This document shows positions 18,620 through 23,557 of a DNA stretch of 64,000 nt, piece by piece. Below the pieces are notes generated by a model. That model ran no database searches, was not told the DNA's origin, and saw nothing but the letters and a program-made list of their open reading frames with translations. The stretch spans positions 2,914,001 to 2,978,000 of the forward strand of contig NZ_JAFBCF010000001.1 of NCBI RefSeq assembly GCF_016907535.1, in the 5' to 3' direction. The stretch's first letter is position 1. Every line of letters starts with the position of its first letter. Source of the stretch: Microlunatus panaciterrae (GTDB taxonomy: Bacteria > Actinomycetota > Actinomycetes > Propionibacteriales > Propionibacteriaceae). The translations under genes and the position numbers were made by a program.

Positions 18620-19789
18620 GTGACCGACTTCACCGATCTCTACACCCCCACCGAGGAGCACCGGGCCTTCCGAGCGGCGGTGCGTGAGGTGTGCGAAGCC
18701 AAGGTGGCCCCGAACGCGGCCGAGGCCGACGAGACCGGGGAGTTCCCCAAGGCCTCCTACGAGGCGCTGCGGGCGGCGGACTTCCACGCCCCCCACATCC
18801 CGGAGGAGTATGACGGCGTCGGTGCCGATGCGCTGGCCACCGTGATCGTGATCGAAGAGGTGGCCCGGGCCTGCGCCGCCAGCTCACTCATCCCGGCGGT
18901 CAACAAGCTCGGAACCCTGCCGATCATCCTGGCCGGTTCGGCCGAGCTCAGGCAGAAGTATCTTCCACCGGTGGCGAGCGGGGACGCCATGTTCTCCTAC
19001 TGCCTGTCCGAACCGGAGGCGGGCTCGGACGCCGTGTCGATGACCACCCGCGCCGTCGCCGACGGTGACGGCTACCTGCTGAACGGGGTGAAGCGCTGGA
19101 TCACCAACGCCGGCCTCTCGGACTTCTACACCGTCTTCGCCGTCACCGACCCCGGAGCACGGTCCAAGGGGATCAGCGCCTTCGTGGTCGAGAAGGCCGA
19201 CGACGGGGTCTCGTTCGGTGCCCCGGAGAAGAAGCTCGGCATCAAGGGCTCTCCGACCCGCGAGGTGTACTTCGACAACGTCCGCATTCCGGCCGACCGG
19301 ATGATCGGCGCTCCGGGCACGGGGTTCGGTACGGCGATGCGGACCCTCGACCACACCCGGGTCACCATCGCCGCGCAGGCGGTCGGGATCGCGCAGGGCG
19401 CGCTGGACTATGCCCTCGGCTACGTTCAGGAGCGCAAGCAGTTCGGCAAGGCGATCGCCGAGTTCCAGGGTCTGCAGTTCATGCTCGCCGACATGGGGAT
19501 GAAGCTCGAGGCGGCCCGCCAGCTGACCTACGCCGCCGCCGCCAAGTCGCAGCGCGGCGATGCCGACCTGACCTACTTCGGCGCCGCCGCCAAGTGCTTC
19601 GCCTCCGATGTGGCGATGGAGATCACCACCGATGCGGTCCAGCTGCTCGGTGGCTATGGCTACACCCGCGACTACCCGGTCGAGCGGATGATGCGGGACG
19701 CCAAGATCACCCAGATCTACGAGGGCACCAACCAGGTCCAGCGAATCGTGATGGCCCGTCAGCTGCTGGCCGGACTGCCGACGAACTAG
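18620..19789 (+). CDS. Acyl-CoA dehydrogenase
   Basis: 389 aa, GTG start 6 bases after a TACCCT box. Signatures: [17 protein letters not shown] (FAD/substrate loop), [16 protein letters not shown], and [20 protein letters not shown] followed by [17 protein letters not shown], with the catalytic base E368 in YEGTNQ. Position and length match short- or branched-chain acyl-CoA dehydrogenases of the FadE25/Bcd type. It catalyses FAD-dependent alpha,beta-desaturation of acyl-CoA in the cytoplasm, passing electrons to ETF. It follows the purK-purE region in many actinobacteria. Confidence 0.95.
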
Positions 19790-19810
19790 TCCCGCCCCTG
19801 AAGCGCGTCC

Positions 19811-19962
19811 CACCGTTCGCGGTACGCCCGTGACCCCCGTCCGGCCGTTCGCGTTTCGCTTCACGCGCGTCTGGCCGTTCGCGTTTTGCGTTACGCGCGT
19901 CCGAGCGTTGGCGTTTCGCGTTACGCGCGTCTGGCCGTTCGCAGTACGCCCGTTCGCTCGCG
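19811..19962. repeat. 30-base GC-rich tandem repeat, about five units
   Basis: Units start at 19843, 19873, 19903 and 19933 with a 30-base period, plus a related unit near 19811 (32 bases earlier). The consensus is close to GGCCGTTCGCGTTTCGCGTT followed by ACGCGCGTCT. Units differ at a few positions. The period is a multiple of three, so open frames cross it, but the implied protein is an Arg/Phe/Thr/Val repeat with no start signal. Treat as non-coding. Confidence 0.85.
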
Positions 19963-19990
19963 ACGCGGGTGCGTCCCCCGTGCGCGCTCC

Positions 19991-20371
19991 ACCTCACCCG
20001 GTCGAAAACTCGACAGAACGCGACTTTTGCGGGCCTTTGGGGCCAGAACGGCGATGGAACTCGCGTTCTGATGAGTTTTCGACCGAGCGGGACAGGCCGG
20101 GCTGCCTGATTGCGCCTGGGGCGCCGTCCACCCACCTCACCCGGTCGAAAACTCGACAGAACGCGACTTTTGCGGGCTATTGGGGCCAGAACGGCGATGG
20201 AACTCGCGTTCTGATGAGTTTTCGACCGAGCGGGACAGGCCGGGCTGCCTGATCGCGTCTGGGGCGCCGTCCACCCACCTCGCCCGGTCGAAAACTCGAC
20301 AGAACGCGACTTTTGCGGGCCTTTGAGGCCAAAACGGCGATGGAACTCGCGTTCTGATGAGTTTTCGTACG
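19991..20371. repeat. 143-base tandem array of hairpin-forming units (2.7 copies)
   Basis: Units begin at 19991, 20134 and 20277, with only scattered substitutions between them. Each holds a 25-base inverted repeat with one 2-base mismatch: left arms 20000-20024, 20143-20167, 20286-20310; right arms 20061-20085, 20204-20228, 20347-20371. The loop is 36 bases. The third unit degenerates after GAGTTTTCG (around 20367), where the array stops. Arms contain GGTCGAAAACTC and CAGAACGCGA. No gene is supported here. Confidence 0.9.
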
Positions 20372-20605
20372 GGCGGGGCCGCGGAACGGGCGGGGCCGCC
20401 GTACGGACGGGGCCGCGGGAGGGGCGGGACAGGGAACGGGCGGGACAGGGAACGGACGGGACCGCGGTAAGGGCGGGACAGGGAACGGGACGGGGCCACC
20501 GGGCGACGGGCACAGGGCGACCGGCGCAAGGACCGGGCCACAGGGCCAGGGGCAGGACGGCGGTCCTAGGGCGACGGGCAGCGGGCGCCAGGGGCCGCAG
20601 CCGTC
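20372..20605. repeat. G-rich low-complexity tract
   Basis: About 230 bases built from short imperfect tandem units such as GGGCGGGGCCGC and GGGCGGGACAGGGAAC on the plus strand. Many closely spaced runs of three or four G give clear quadruplex-forming potential on that strand. I see no gene. It separates the hairpin array from the 3-prime end of the LCP gene. Confidence 0.7.
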
Positions 20606-20620
20606 GCCTGCTCGGGACGC

Positions 20621-21886
20621 CTACTTCTTGGCGAACTTCTTCAAGTTCGAGGTGTCTCCGCGGGCGATGTCGCCGAACATCTCCTTCGCCTGCTGCTGGT
20701 CCCAGAGCACCGCCGACCCTGCGGAGGTGGAGGCGTTCGGGTCCGAGATCGGCACCGTCAGGGTCAGCCCCGTGCCGTTCGACACCTTCCGCATCCCCAG
20801 CGCCAGGGTGACCAGCTGGCGGGCCGAGGTCTTCTCGCCGAGCGTCACCGACTCTGCTGCGGCGTTGTTCAGCTGCCAGTACCGGACGGGGTTGAGCACT
20901 GAGGCGGGGGAGGCACCCTTCTTCACCATGGCCGACAGCATCGCCCGCTGGCGCTCCACCCGCCCGAGGTCGCCGCGCGGGTCGGCCTTGCGCATCCGCA
21001 CGTAGCCCAGCGCGTCGGCACCGGCCAGGTTGTGGCAACCCTTCTTCAGGTTGAGATGGGAGTCCTTGTCCTTGATCGCCTTGGGCAGGCACATCCGGAT
21101 GCCACCGAGCGCGTCGATGACGTTGACGAAACCACCGAAGCCAACCTCCACGTAGCCGTCGACCCGCAGACCCGTGTTCTGCTCCACGGTGTTGACCAGC
21201 AGCTTCGGGCCACCGAAGGAGTAGGCGGCGTTGATCTTGTTCCGGCCGTTGTCCGGGATCGGTACGAACGAGTCGCGGGGGATGGAGATCAGCACGGGGT
21301 CACCACCGACCGGGACGTACATCAGCATGATGGTGTCGGTGCGCCCGCCCGCGGTTCTGCCGGTGCCGAGCTTCTTGCGCTCCGCCTTGGTCAGGCCCTC
21401 CCGCGAGTCCGATCCCACCAGCAGGATCGTGGTGCCGGGCTGGTCGGGGGGCCGGGCGCCGTCGGGTGCCTCGTCGACCCGGCTGACCTTGCTCCAGGCG
21501 TACACCGGGACGGCGACCAGACCCACCACGAAGACGAGCAGCAGGATGCCGAGGGCCCGGAAGGTGGTGCGGACCGGGTGGCGCCGCTTGCCCGGCGTGG
21601 GAACGGGCACCCCACCGCCTCCGGGCGGCGGGCCCTGTGGAGGGAGGCCACCGCCGCCCTGCCAGCCCCCGCTCCGCGGACCCTGCTGAGGAGGCCGGGA
21701 CGCAGCCGGACCAGGCTGCTGTGTGTGTCGGGGGTCACGTACCGGCGGCTGGACCGCCGTCGACGGCCCCGCCGCAGCCTCATCGGCCGGCATCGGCGGC
21801 AGCACCCGGGTGTGCTCCGGCTCGTTGTTCTCCGGCTCTGGACGGCGATAGAGCCAGTCGAGGTCGTCGTTTCGGCTGGTGGCCAT
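20621..21886 (-). CDS. LCP (LytR-CpsA-Psr) family cell-wall glycopolymer ligase
   Basis: 421 aa, ATG start 8 bases after a TAAAGT box. A ~100-residue cytoplasmic Pro/Gly-rich segment precedes one membrane helix (about 109-131). The LCP domain is outside the membrane: ILLVGSDSREGL, GRTDTIMLMYVPVGGDPV, LISIPRDSFVPIP (the conserved Arg-Asp), NKINAAYSFGGP and ALGYVRMRKADPRGDLGR (the R-x-x-x-D-x-x-R phosphate-binding end). LCP proteins move polyprenyl-linked glycopolymers onto peptidoglycan. A second LCP gene is divergent, 132 bases away. Confidence 0.92.
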   Translation of the reverse strand: MATSRNDDLDWLYRRPEPENNEPEHTRVLPPMPADEAAAGPSTAVQPPVRDPRHTQQPGPAASRPPQQGPRSGGWQGGGGLPPQGPPPGGGGVPVPTPGKRRHPVRTTFRALGILLLVFVVGLVAVPVYAWSKVSRVDEAPDGARPPDQPGTTILLVGSDSREGLTKAERKKLGTGRTAGGRTDTIMLMYVPVGGDPVLISIPRDSFVPIPDNGRNKINAAYSFGGPKLLVNTVEQNTGLRVDGYVEVGFGGFVNVIDALGGIRMCLPKAIKDKDSHLNLKKGCHNLAGADALGYVRMRKADPRGDLGRVERQRAMLSAMVKKGASPASVLNPVRYWQLNNAAAESVTLGEKTSARQLVTLALGMRKVSNGTGLTLTVPISDPNASTSAGSAVLWDQQQAKEMFGDIARGDTSNLKKFAKK

Positions 21887-21894
21887 GGATCGAG

Positions 21895-21900
21895 ACTTTA
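21895..21900 (-). promoter_or_regulatory. -10 box, first LCP gene
   Basis: TAAAGT on the minus strand, 8 bases before ATG 21886. Confidence 0.6.
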
Positions 21901-22018
21901 CCCGCCCTAAACCAGTCGGTGCCCGGCGTGGCGGACCCAGCCGGGCCAAAACCGGCAGACATACTGACGAAGGTCTCCCCGGAGATCCCTTCCCCCATCG
22001 CACGTCGAAAGGCCCCAG

Positions 22019-23557
22019 GTGTCGCAACGCGCCGTGGATGCACGCGCTGCCGGATCAGCGCCGCATGCCGCCCAGGATCGCAGTGCCCAGCACCGCAGCG
22101 ACCGGATCAAGCTCCGGCGCGCTCTGACCTACCTCGGGATGACCCTGGTGCTCCCCGGCTCGGCCCAGCTGTCGGCTGGCAACGCGCGGCTGGGTCGGCT
22201 GGCGCTCCGGGTCTGGGCCGGGCTGTGGACGGTCGCTGTGCTGTTCGGGGTGCTGGCGCTGACCTGGCGCAGTGGCGCGGTGGGGCTGCTGACCTTCCCG
22301 CCGACACTGCGCGTGCTCCAGGTGTGCCTGATCGCCCTCGGCATCGGCTGGGGTGCGCTGCTGCTGGACGCCTGGCGGATCGCCCGGCCACCCGAGCTGG
22401 CCCGGCAGCACCGCCTCGGTTTCGCGGTCCTCAACCTGGCCCTGGTCGGTCTGGTCGTCGGCGGCCTGCTCGCCGGCGCCTCGATCGTGTCGTCCCAGCG
22501 GGATTTCATGGCCAGTGTCTTCGCCGGCGGCGGCGACAAACACGCCAAGGACGGCCGGATCAACGTGCTGCTGCTGGGCGGCGACGCCGGTAAGACCCGG
22601 GTCGGGCTCCGGCCCGACAGCCTCACCGTCGCCAGCATCGACGCCGAGACCGGCCGGACCGTCCTGCTGAGCCTGCCCCGCAACATGGAGGACGTACCGT
22701 TCCCCGCCTACTCGCCGCTGCACAAGGTGTTCCCCAAGGGCTACACCTGCGCCGACCACTCCTGCATGCTGAACGCTGTCTACACCTACGCCAGCGAGCA
22801 CAAGGACCTCTACCCCGGAGTCAAGGACCCGGGCGTGCAGGCCACCAAGGAGGCGGTCGAGGGAGTCACCGGCCTGAAGGTGAACTACTACGCCATGATC
22901 GACCTGAAGGGCTTCCAGTCGCTGATCGACGCCGTTGGCGGCATCACCCTCGACATCAACAAGCGGATCCCCATCGGGGGTGGGTCGACCGAGGTGAAGC
23001 ACTACATCGAGCCCGGCAAGGGCGTGAAACTGGACGGCTTCCACGCGCTGTGGTTCGCGCGTTCCCGGCACGACTCGTCCGACTACGAGCGGATGGTACG
23101 GCAGAAGTGCGTGATGAACGCCATGCTCAACCAGCTCGACCCGATGACCGTGCTGACCAAGTTCAACCAGATCGCTGCCGCCGGCAAGGAGATCGTCGAG
23201 ACCGACGTTCCCAGCTCCGAGATCAGCACCCTGATGGACCTGGCCCTCAAGGCGCGACAACTGCCCGTCTCCAGCGTCGCCTTCGTGCCGCCGCTGGTCT
23301 ATCCGGGCAATCCCAAGTTCGACGTGGTCCGGGCCACGGTGCAGAAGAAGATCGTTCAATCCGAGGCCGCCGACAGCGGCGAGCCGACCACCCAGCCCAA
23401 GGCCAAGCCGGCCGGCGCCACCAGCGCACCCAGCGGCTCCGCCGACTCTACCCCCGCCACCAAGCCGACGAAGAAGAGCGCGGAGTCGACTGCCAGCGAC
23501 GCTCCCTACTCCGGGTCCGAGACCAGCGACCTCGAGAATGTCTGCCACGCCTCCTGA
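22019..23557 (+). CDS. LCP family protein with a multi-helix N-terminus
   Basis: 512 aa, GTG start. Unlike the neighbour, it has about four hydrophobic segments (roughly 35-50, 60-82, 95-115, 138-160) before the LCP domain (NVLLLGGDAGKTRVGLRPDS, LLSLPRNMEDVPF, VNYYAMIDLKGFQSLIDAV, ALWFARSRHDSSDYERM). The closing tail is Ser/Thr/Lys/Pro-rich (about 445-505). This multi-helix architecture is known in actinobacterial LCP proteins. Likely role: attachment of a wall glycopolymer. It is followed 45 bases later by a GT2 gene, possibly in the same pathway. Confidence 0.9.
   Translation: MSQRAVDARAAGSAPHAAQDRSAQHRSDRIKLRRALTYLGMTLVLPGSAQLSAGNARLGRLALRVWAGLWTVAVLFGVLALTWRSGAVGLLTFPPTLRVLQVCLIALGIGWGALLLDAWRIARPPELARQHRLGFAVLNLALVGLVVGGLLAGASIVSSQRDFMASVFAGGGDKHAKDGRINVLLLGGDAGKTRVGLRPDSLTVASIDAETGRTVLLSLPRNMEDVPFPAYSPLHKVFPKGYTCADHSCMLNAVYTYASEHKDLYPGVKDPGVQATKEAVEGVTGLKVNYYAMIDLKGFQSLIDAVGGITLDINKRIPIGGGSTEVKHYIEPGKGVKLDGFHALWFARSRHDSSDYERMVRQKCVMNAMLNQLDPMTVLTKFNQIAAAGKEIVETDVPSSEISTLMDLALKARQLPVSSVAFVPPLVYPGNPKFDVVRATVQKKIVQSEAADSGEPTTQPKAKPAGATSAPSGSADSTPATKPTKKSAESTASDAPYSGSETSDLENVCHAS

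Follow-up and report, generated by a model that had tools for sequence, protein, structure and literature searches.

A lineage-specific family of intergenic repeats with dyad-symmetric cores and regular spacing in Microlunatus panaciterrae

An array of facing cores between convergent genes

The window, by which we mean the whole 64,000-nucleotide stretch of Microlunatus panaciterrae DNA analyzed here, contains a gap between an acyl-CoA dehydrogenase gene and a LytR-CpsA-Psr (LCP) family gene (Table 1). The initial annotation of this gap, made from the sequence by itself, described a tandem array with a 143-base period lying between convergent genes, and both points are borne out: the flanking genes do converge, and TRF recovers an array of 2.7 copies with that period (score 709). 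Copies 1 and 2 are whole; the outer 3′ arm of copy 3 diverges past GAGTTTTCG (20367). The annotation also described a hairpin in each unit. In copy 1, the arms (19999–20023 and 20061–20085) are, as stated, 25 bases long with one 2-base mismatch, while the loop is 37 rather than 36 bases. The 87-nt hairpin at 20000–20086 folds at −47.7 kcal/mol (z −6.7), and none of 200 shuffled sequences folds equally low.

Each 143-bp unit consists of two 28-bp cores in opposite orientation. The hairpin in the window arises locally where two cores face each other, and duplication has tripled it; the repeated element is not the hairpin, it is the 28-bp core. The 143-bp unit is itself exceptional for the family, which is normally built of 28-bp cores spaced about 51 bp apart. 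Two more tandem arrays flank this one within the same gap, at 19803–19942 and 20369–20494, with 30-bp and 17/49-bp periods.

Table 1. Features of the array and its neighboring genes, in window coordinates
Feature	Position	Strand	Evidence
Acyl-CoA dehydrogenase gene, left neighbor (context only)	18620..19789	+	PF00441, PF02771, PF02770
Tandem triplication, 143-bp period: converging core pair plus ~57 bp of flanking sequence	19989..20367	.	TRF 96% matches; spacings 58 and 85
Core, copy 1, rightward	20003..20030	+	matrix score 51.3 bits
Core, copy 1, leftward (start-to-start 58 bp from partner)	20054..20081	-	43.2 bits
Core, copy 2, rightward	20146..20173	+	51.3 bits
Core, copy 2, leftward	20197..20224	-	43.2 bits
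Core, copy 3, rightward	20289..20316	+	51.3 bits
Core, copy 3, leftward	20340..20367	-	39.1 bits
LytR-CpsA-Psr family gene, right neighbor (context only)	20621..22027	-	PF03816

A dispersed intergenic family

The 87-bp hairpin, used as a query, matched this chromosome (4,068,014 bases in one contig) 105 times, and the core pattern, at up to 3 mismatches, matched 166 times in the genome against once in the backward control. According to the annotation, the lack of a second locus, together with a lack of compensatory changes in the arms, would leave only a local duplication; the core is present at many loci of this genome, so the part of this refutation that rests on a missing second locus fails. 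With a 28-position matrix at a threshold of 14 bits, at least 195 sites were recovered in 40 fetched stretches and none on the reversed sequence, and the count was still 195 once overlaps were removed at 10 bits. Because the stretches were selected for holding copies, and 174 copies in 37 of the 40 served to train the matrix, this figure is a minimum rather than a full count of the genome. In a profile search of this genome, all of the best 150 candidates scored were matches.

The family occupies at least 40 loci, which hold 1–12 cores each, arranged as arrays everywhere except at one single-core locus. None of the 195 sites falls inside a called gene, though called genes (from a codon model made for this analysis) occupy 81% of the fetched DNA. 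The flanking genes are functionally unrelated: of the up to 80 flanks, 40 ORFs were compared with Pfam, and 37 were assigned a family at E up to 0.001; these include Rho, NusA, RNase J, BipA, PEP carboxykinase, and Ddl, among others. The gene pairs around the 40 arrays are convergent in 14 cases, co-directional in 21, and divergent in 5. A replication-linked distribution was rejected, since the arrays show no chromosomal position bias (Rayleigh p = 0.26) and the one-directional arrays divide 14 to 11 if the contig start is assumed to be the origin.

A second dispersed family, GCCCTTCGACAGGCTCAGGGC, often lies beside core arrays. It occurs in 17 of the 40 fetched loci (L081 and L101, for example), with 60 copies at up to 4 mismatches; a 15-mer search allowing 1 mismatch found none in the window.

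Core anatomy

The 28-bp consensus is CGARAASTCR-NCAGAACG-CGASTTYTCG. In the locus-weighted matrix, its arms mirror each other about axis 13.5 (r = 0.93, against at most 0.15 at six other axes tried), and the core carries 40.1 bits of information versus 4.7 bits in the 24 linker positions. Mirrored positions share their ambiguity as well, A/G with T/C and C/G with C/G. The 8-bp center is asymmetric and nearly invariant save for its first base, and every core therefore has a direction. The 40.1 bits far exceed the 15.3 bits needed for locating 195 sites, which indicates that shared ancestry or homogenization inflates the information in the core.

The mirrored arms do not behave as paired strands. 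The two sides of the C/G pair vary independently (Fisher p = 0.67); those of the A/G–T/C pair depart from independence (p = 0.03), in a direction away from Watson–Crick pairing. No covariation was found in 60 aligned cores, where 74.1% of cells pair versus 74.9% after shuffling. Single units fold slightly better than shuffles (mean z −0.74), and the folding of head-to-tail pairs resembles that of shuffles (z −0.9 and −1.3); converging pairs fold strongly, with z values of −10.6 at L095 and −4.3 at L093 beside the −6.7 in the window. Mirror arms that vary independently are expected if each is read by half of a protein dimer, and are unlike a maintained hairpin. Our best reading of the sequence is that the core is a putative protein site on duplex DNA and not a hairpin preserved in RNA.

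Spacing, linkers, and helical phase

Neighboring cores lie on the same strand in 132 cases and on opposite strands in 23. Outside the window array, cores lie mostly head to tail. Same-strand neighbors are 50–52 bp apart in 111 of the 132 cases, and 12 of 19 converging neighbors are 57–59 bp apart; diverging neighbors number four, two of them in the window duplication. Between loci, cores are 80% identical and linkers 36% (chance 30%); between neighbors (110 pairs), the values are 89% and 56%. Linker length is held, and linker sequence is largely lost.

What the linkers do share is a distribution of A/T. Along the unit, A/T peaks fall within the core (AAAA, AGAA, TTYT) and at two linker positions. 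The dominant component has a period of 10.2 bp, which is the fifth harmonic of 51 bp; its value is 0.89, and no other component computed exceeds 0.21. Power at this period is 2.23 as observed and 1.30 when cores are kept and linkers shuffled, and random windows drawn from these loci average 0.22; none of 300 linker shuffles attains the observed value, and in 43 of 48 runs the power is above the mean of that run's own shuffles. Among the periods tried, power peaks at 10.2 and is lower at 10.5. The linker A/T profile has a split-half correlation of 0.90 over 35 loci, a measure independent of the choice of linker peaks; A/T is also higher at the linker peaks than elsewhere in 33 of the 35 loci, with the peak positions taken from the same data.

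Differences between linkers are class-preserving in 274 of 601 cases within loci, compared with 23 of 122 in the 60 strict copies of the GCCCTTCGACAGGCTCAGGGC family. A looser set of that family, chance matches included, gives 244 of 654, a random linker comparison gives 43%, and low-divergence linker pairs with 1–5 differences (34 pairs from 18 loci, non-independent) give 43 of 100. In light of the looser set and the random comparison, we count the C-to-G excess of the linkers as support for selection and not as proof of it. Within-class letter agreement is above chance, and the linker pattern is therefore partly inherited from a common unit. Selection on helical phase is likely, though not proven, alongside this inheritance.

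Orientation of the arrays

Cores point in one direction at 25 of the 40 loci (one of these a single core) and in both directions at the remaining 15. All 15 mixed loci start rightward and end leftward, although in two of them (L094 and L106) an insertion or a gene stands between the parts counted as one locus. This polarity is independent of gene direction, as the genes on either side of the converging arrays at L088 and L096 diverge. The occurrence of arrays near stop codons had raised the idea of a 3′-UTR element oriented with its gene; the independence of orientation from gene strand, and the same converging arrays between divergent genes, led us to reject it. In several one-directional arrays the last core is followed by a common trailer, about 100 bp long and loosely conserved.

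Distribution outside the genome

The repeat family is lineage-specific within the sets searched. Among 19 congeners, the core profile found no match in the best 150 candidates scored per genome, and the core pattern found none when 1 mismatch was allowed. With 2 mismatches allowed, it matches once or twice in each of 4 genomes out of 390 others in the order. An exact scan of the GTDB collection, which may omit this genome and its nearest kin, returned three contigs with a single match each (Synergistaceae, Helicobacteraceae, and Thermoplasmata assemblies). The L105 array has no match in plasmid and phage records, and 24 stretches of IMG/VR viral contigs contain one exact match each to a 15-base pattern, a number not above chance by our own estimate.

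For an empty-site comparison at the window locus, the acyl-CoA dehydrogenase was matched in 17 of the 19 congeners. At none of these 17 loci does the fetched DNA include the LCP gene, and synteny has therefore been lost; the exact decamer CAGAACGCGA is likewise absent from all 17. We recognized no description of this repeat in the literature searched, as judged by titles and the starts of abstracts.

Interpretation and alternative explanations

We tentatively interpret the family, at a probability of roughly 0.4, as a lineage-specific intergenic repeat whose units are helically phased, putative protein-binding and DNA-bending sites. The core would serve as the duplex binding site of a dimeric, sequence-specific protein; the spacing of approximately five turns would set each bound dimer on the same face of the bendable DNA as the one before, and the array may then wrap or loop as one unit, acting as a local chromosome-organizing or supercoil-handling site. 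Copies would multiply inside loci by unequal duplication, in steps of about 51, 102, and 143 bp. Gyrase or a nucleoid-associated protein is, purely by analogy, a candidate binder, and the best reading is that the family works like BIME-2 or strong gyrase sites, from which its sequence and geometry differ. Its absence from the relatives searched hints at a home-grown means of binding or bending the chromosome. Several observations count against this interpretation: the linker pattern is partly inherited, shared ancestry or homogenization inflates the information in the core, the gene context has neither a common function nor a positional bias, and the 10.2-bp period differs from the 10.75 bp reported for E. 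coli gyrase.

REPs are the best-understood bacterial interspersed repeats. REP/BIME sequences, and BIME-2 especially, resemble the present family in being short, dyad-symmetric, intergenic, clustered, and species-specific, with more than 100 copies, and BIMEs bind proteins including gyrase (PMC2817692; PMC6379681). The high copy number and extragenic position of REPs are both found here. The REP/RAYT model, which explains REPs by a transposase (RAYT) and a palindrome (PMC2817692), was nevertheless rejected: the genome has no match to Y1_Tnp (PF01797) at E up to 0.001, in a search whose control was positive in 5 of 14 genomes; the core (compared as the consensus letters CGARAASTCRNCAGAACGCGASTTYTCG) lacks the GTAG/GTGG head of the REPs listed in PMC2817692; and the arrays do not alternate. 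BIMEs alternate, whereas same-strand neighbors prevail in this family, the array in the window being one that does alternate. Further, unlike in REPs, the arms of most copies do not pair as a hairpin and the asymmetric center is nearly invariant. The "REP/MITE-like" element of the initial annotation is therefore upheld as a dispersed intergenic repeat family and not as a true REP; the nucleoid or recombinase site that it also listed may still apply.

Two other array types invite comparison. Mycobacterial interspersed repetitive units (MIRU) are actinobacterial, intergenic tandem units of ~50–100 bp at ~40 loci and in this resemble the family; we know of no conserved 28-bp dyad core or five-turn phase in them. 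In CRISPR arrays, short repeats with partial symmetry alternate with spacers of constant length, and the present arrays likewise combine partly symmetric repeats with linkers of constant length. A CRISPR array was rejected because neighboring linkers are 56% identical, unlike unique spacers.

It is possible, if doubtful, that the family is instead a selfish repeat of the MITE or satellite kind, whose ~51-bp unit spreads between genes and expands locally without a host role, its core conserved through recognition by an enzyme that moves or copies the unit. In favor of this are the confinement to intergenic DNA beside functionally unrelated genes, the presence in one species only among those searched, higher-order duplications such as the window array, the loosely conserved trailer past unidirectional arrays, and other repeat families in the same gaps. 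However, inspection by eye found neither element ends nor target duplications, the genome has no Y1 transposase, and a passive element has no need of fixed spacing with diverged linkers.

A bolder form of the protein-binding interpretation, which we think unlikely, is a chromatin-like, lineage-specific system in which a protein new to one species decorates the ~40 intergenic arrays, dimers stacked on one face wrap helically phased five-turn units, and polarity (rightward at the opening, leftward at the close) marks the ends of the wrapped units.

The arrays could also be strong DNA gyrase sites, in which, by analogy with BIME-2, the core would be the cleavage segment and the linker with the adjacent core the wrapped DNA. 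The E. coli gyrase motif spans 130 bp, with a 36-bp center and 47-bp flanks in which G/C content has a period of 10.75 bp, and BIME-2 is enriched in sites of gyrase cleavage (PMC6379681); DNA deformability and gyrase are the subject of a preprint (PMC12393610). The arrays here likewise carry helix-phased A/T and G/C blocks around a symmetric center, at 10.2 bp. We nonetheless consider this quite improbable: the period is not 10.75 bp, the periodicity continues through the core, the tandem 51-bp units and strict core letters differ from the E. coli motif, and a nearly invariant asymmetric center is unexpected in a degenerate motif.

Tyrosine-recombinase core sites such as lox and dif have mirror arms and an asymmetric spacer of 6–8 bp, and the core shows the same layout, with its conserved 8-bp center as a would-be crossover region that sets direction. 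The genome has nine Phage_integrase (PF00589) matches, eight of them above the cut-off and one ~1.8 kb from the L109 array; the two best look, from our reading of the ORFs, like housekeeping XerC and XerD. A recombinase site fits the core and not the array geometry: ~200 sites with identical centers in both orientations would scramble the chromosome, and regular, phased 51-bp arrays are unlike known sites, so that this explanation is very improbable.

Least probable of all, by a small margin, is a structured RNA, terminator, or RNA-processing element (the initial annotation had listed a structured RNA and a processing signal), which would account for the strong folding of converging pairs and for the many arrays that start shortly after a stop codon, but which is contradicted by the absence of covariation in the arms, by the weak folding of single units and head-to-tail pairs, by the converging arrays between divergent genes, by a sole Rfam match at 25.1 bits against a 200-bit threshold, and by the 25 one-orientation loci, where a large hairpin is impossible.

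The family is a bacterial interspersed repeat of unusual geometry: a strict core, strict spacing, and helical phase are retained with no RAYT found and without hairpin behavior. If a protein binds these arrays, they would offer a natural test of selection on DNA geometry, beyond sequence, in building chromosome-organizing sites, as well as of how fast such a system arises in one species.

Insertions and other neighboring elements

A transposase insertion of the integrase-core family splits the array in L094, and identical bordering sequence occurs in L098. The split arrays have spacings of 1315 and 1307 bp, which, less the usual 58 and 51 bp, leave excesses of 1257 and 1256 bp; their equality to within one base fits one insertion sequence entering pre-existing arrays. 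The two copies lie in array linkers at genome positions ~1388116–1389405 (L094) and ~1598654–1599935 (L098). It is possible that this insertion sequence prefers arrays as its target.

At L106, in the gap between nusA and an apparent ylxR, a DUF559/MTES_1575 nuclease-like gene (genome 3573246–3574286) lies between six rightward and six leftward cores. A homing link to this nuclease was rejected, as just this one among the six DUF559 matches in the genome is within 10 kb of a known array.

Upstream of the arrays at L099 and L084, inspection by eye suggests that another element may be present, its ends inverted and resembling AACACACGAATCAGCGCGTCA ... TGACGTGCCGATTCGTGTGTT. Finally, degenerate units with a palindromic center such as TCGTCACGTGACGA occur amid normal cores at L112 (genome 3891312 to 3891596), and are possibly a variant subfamily.
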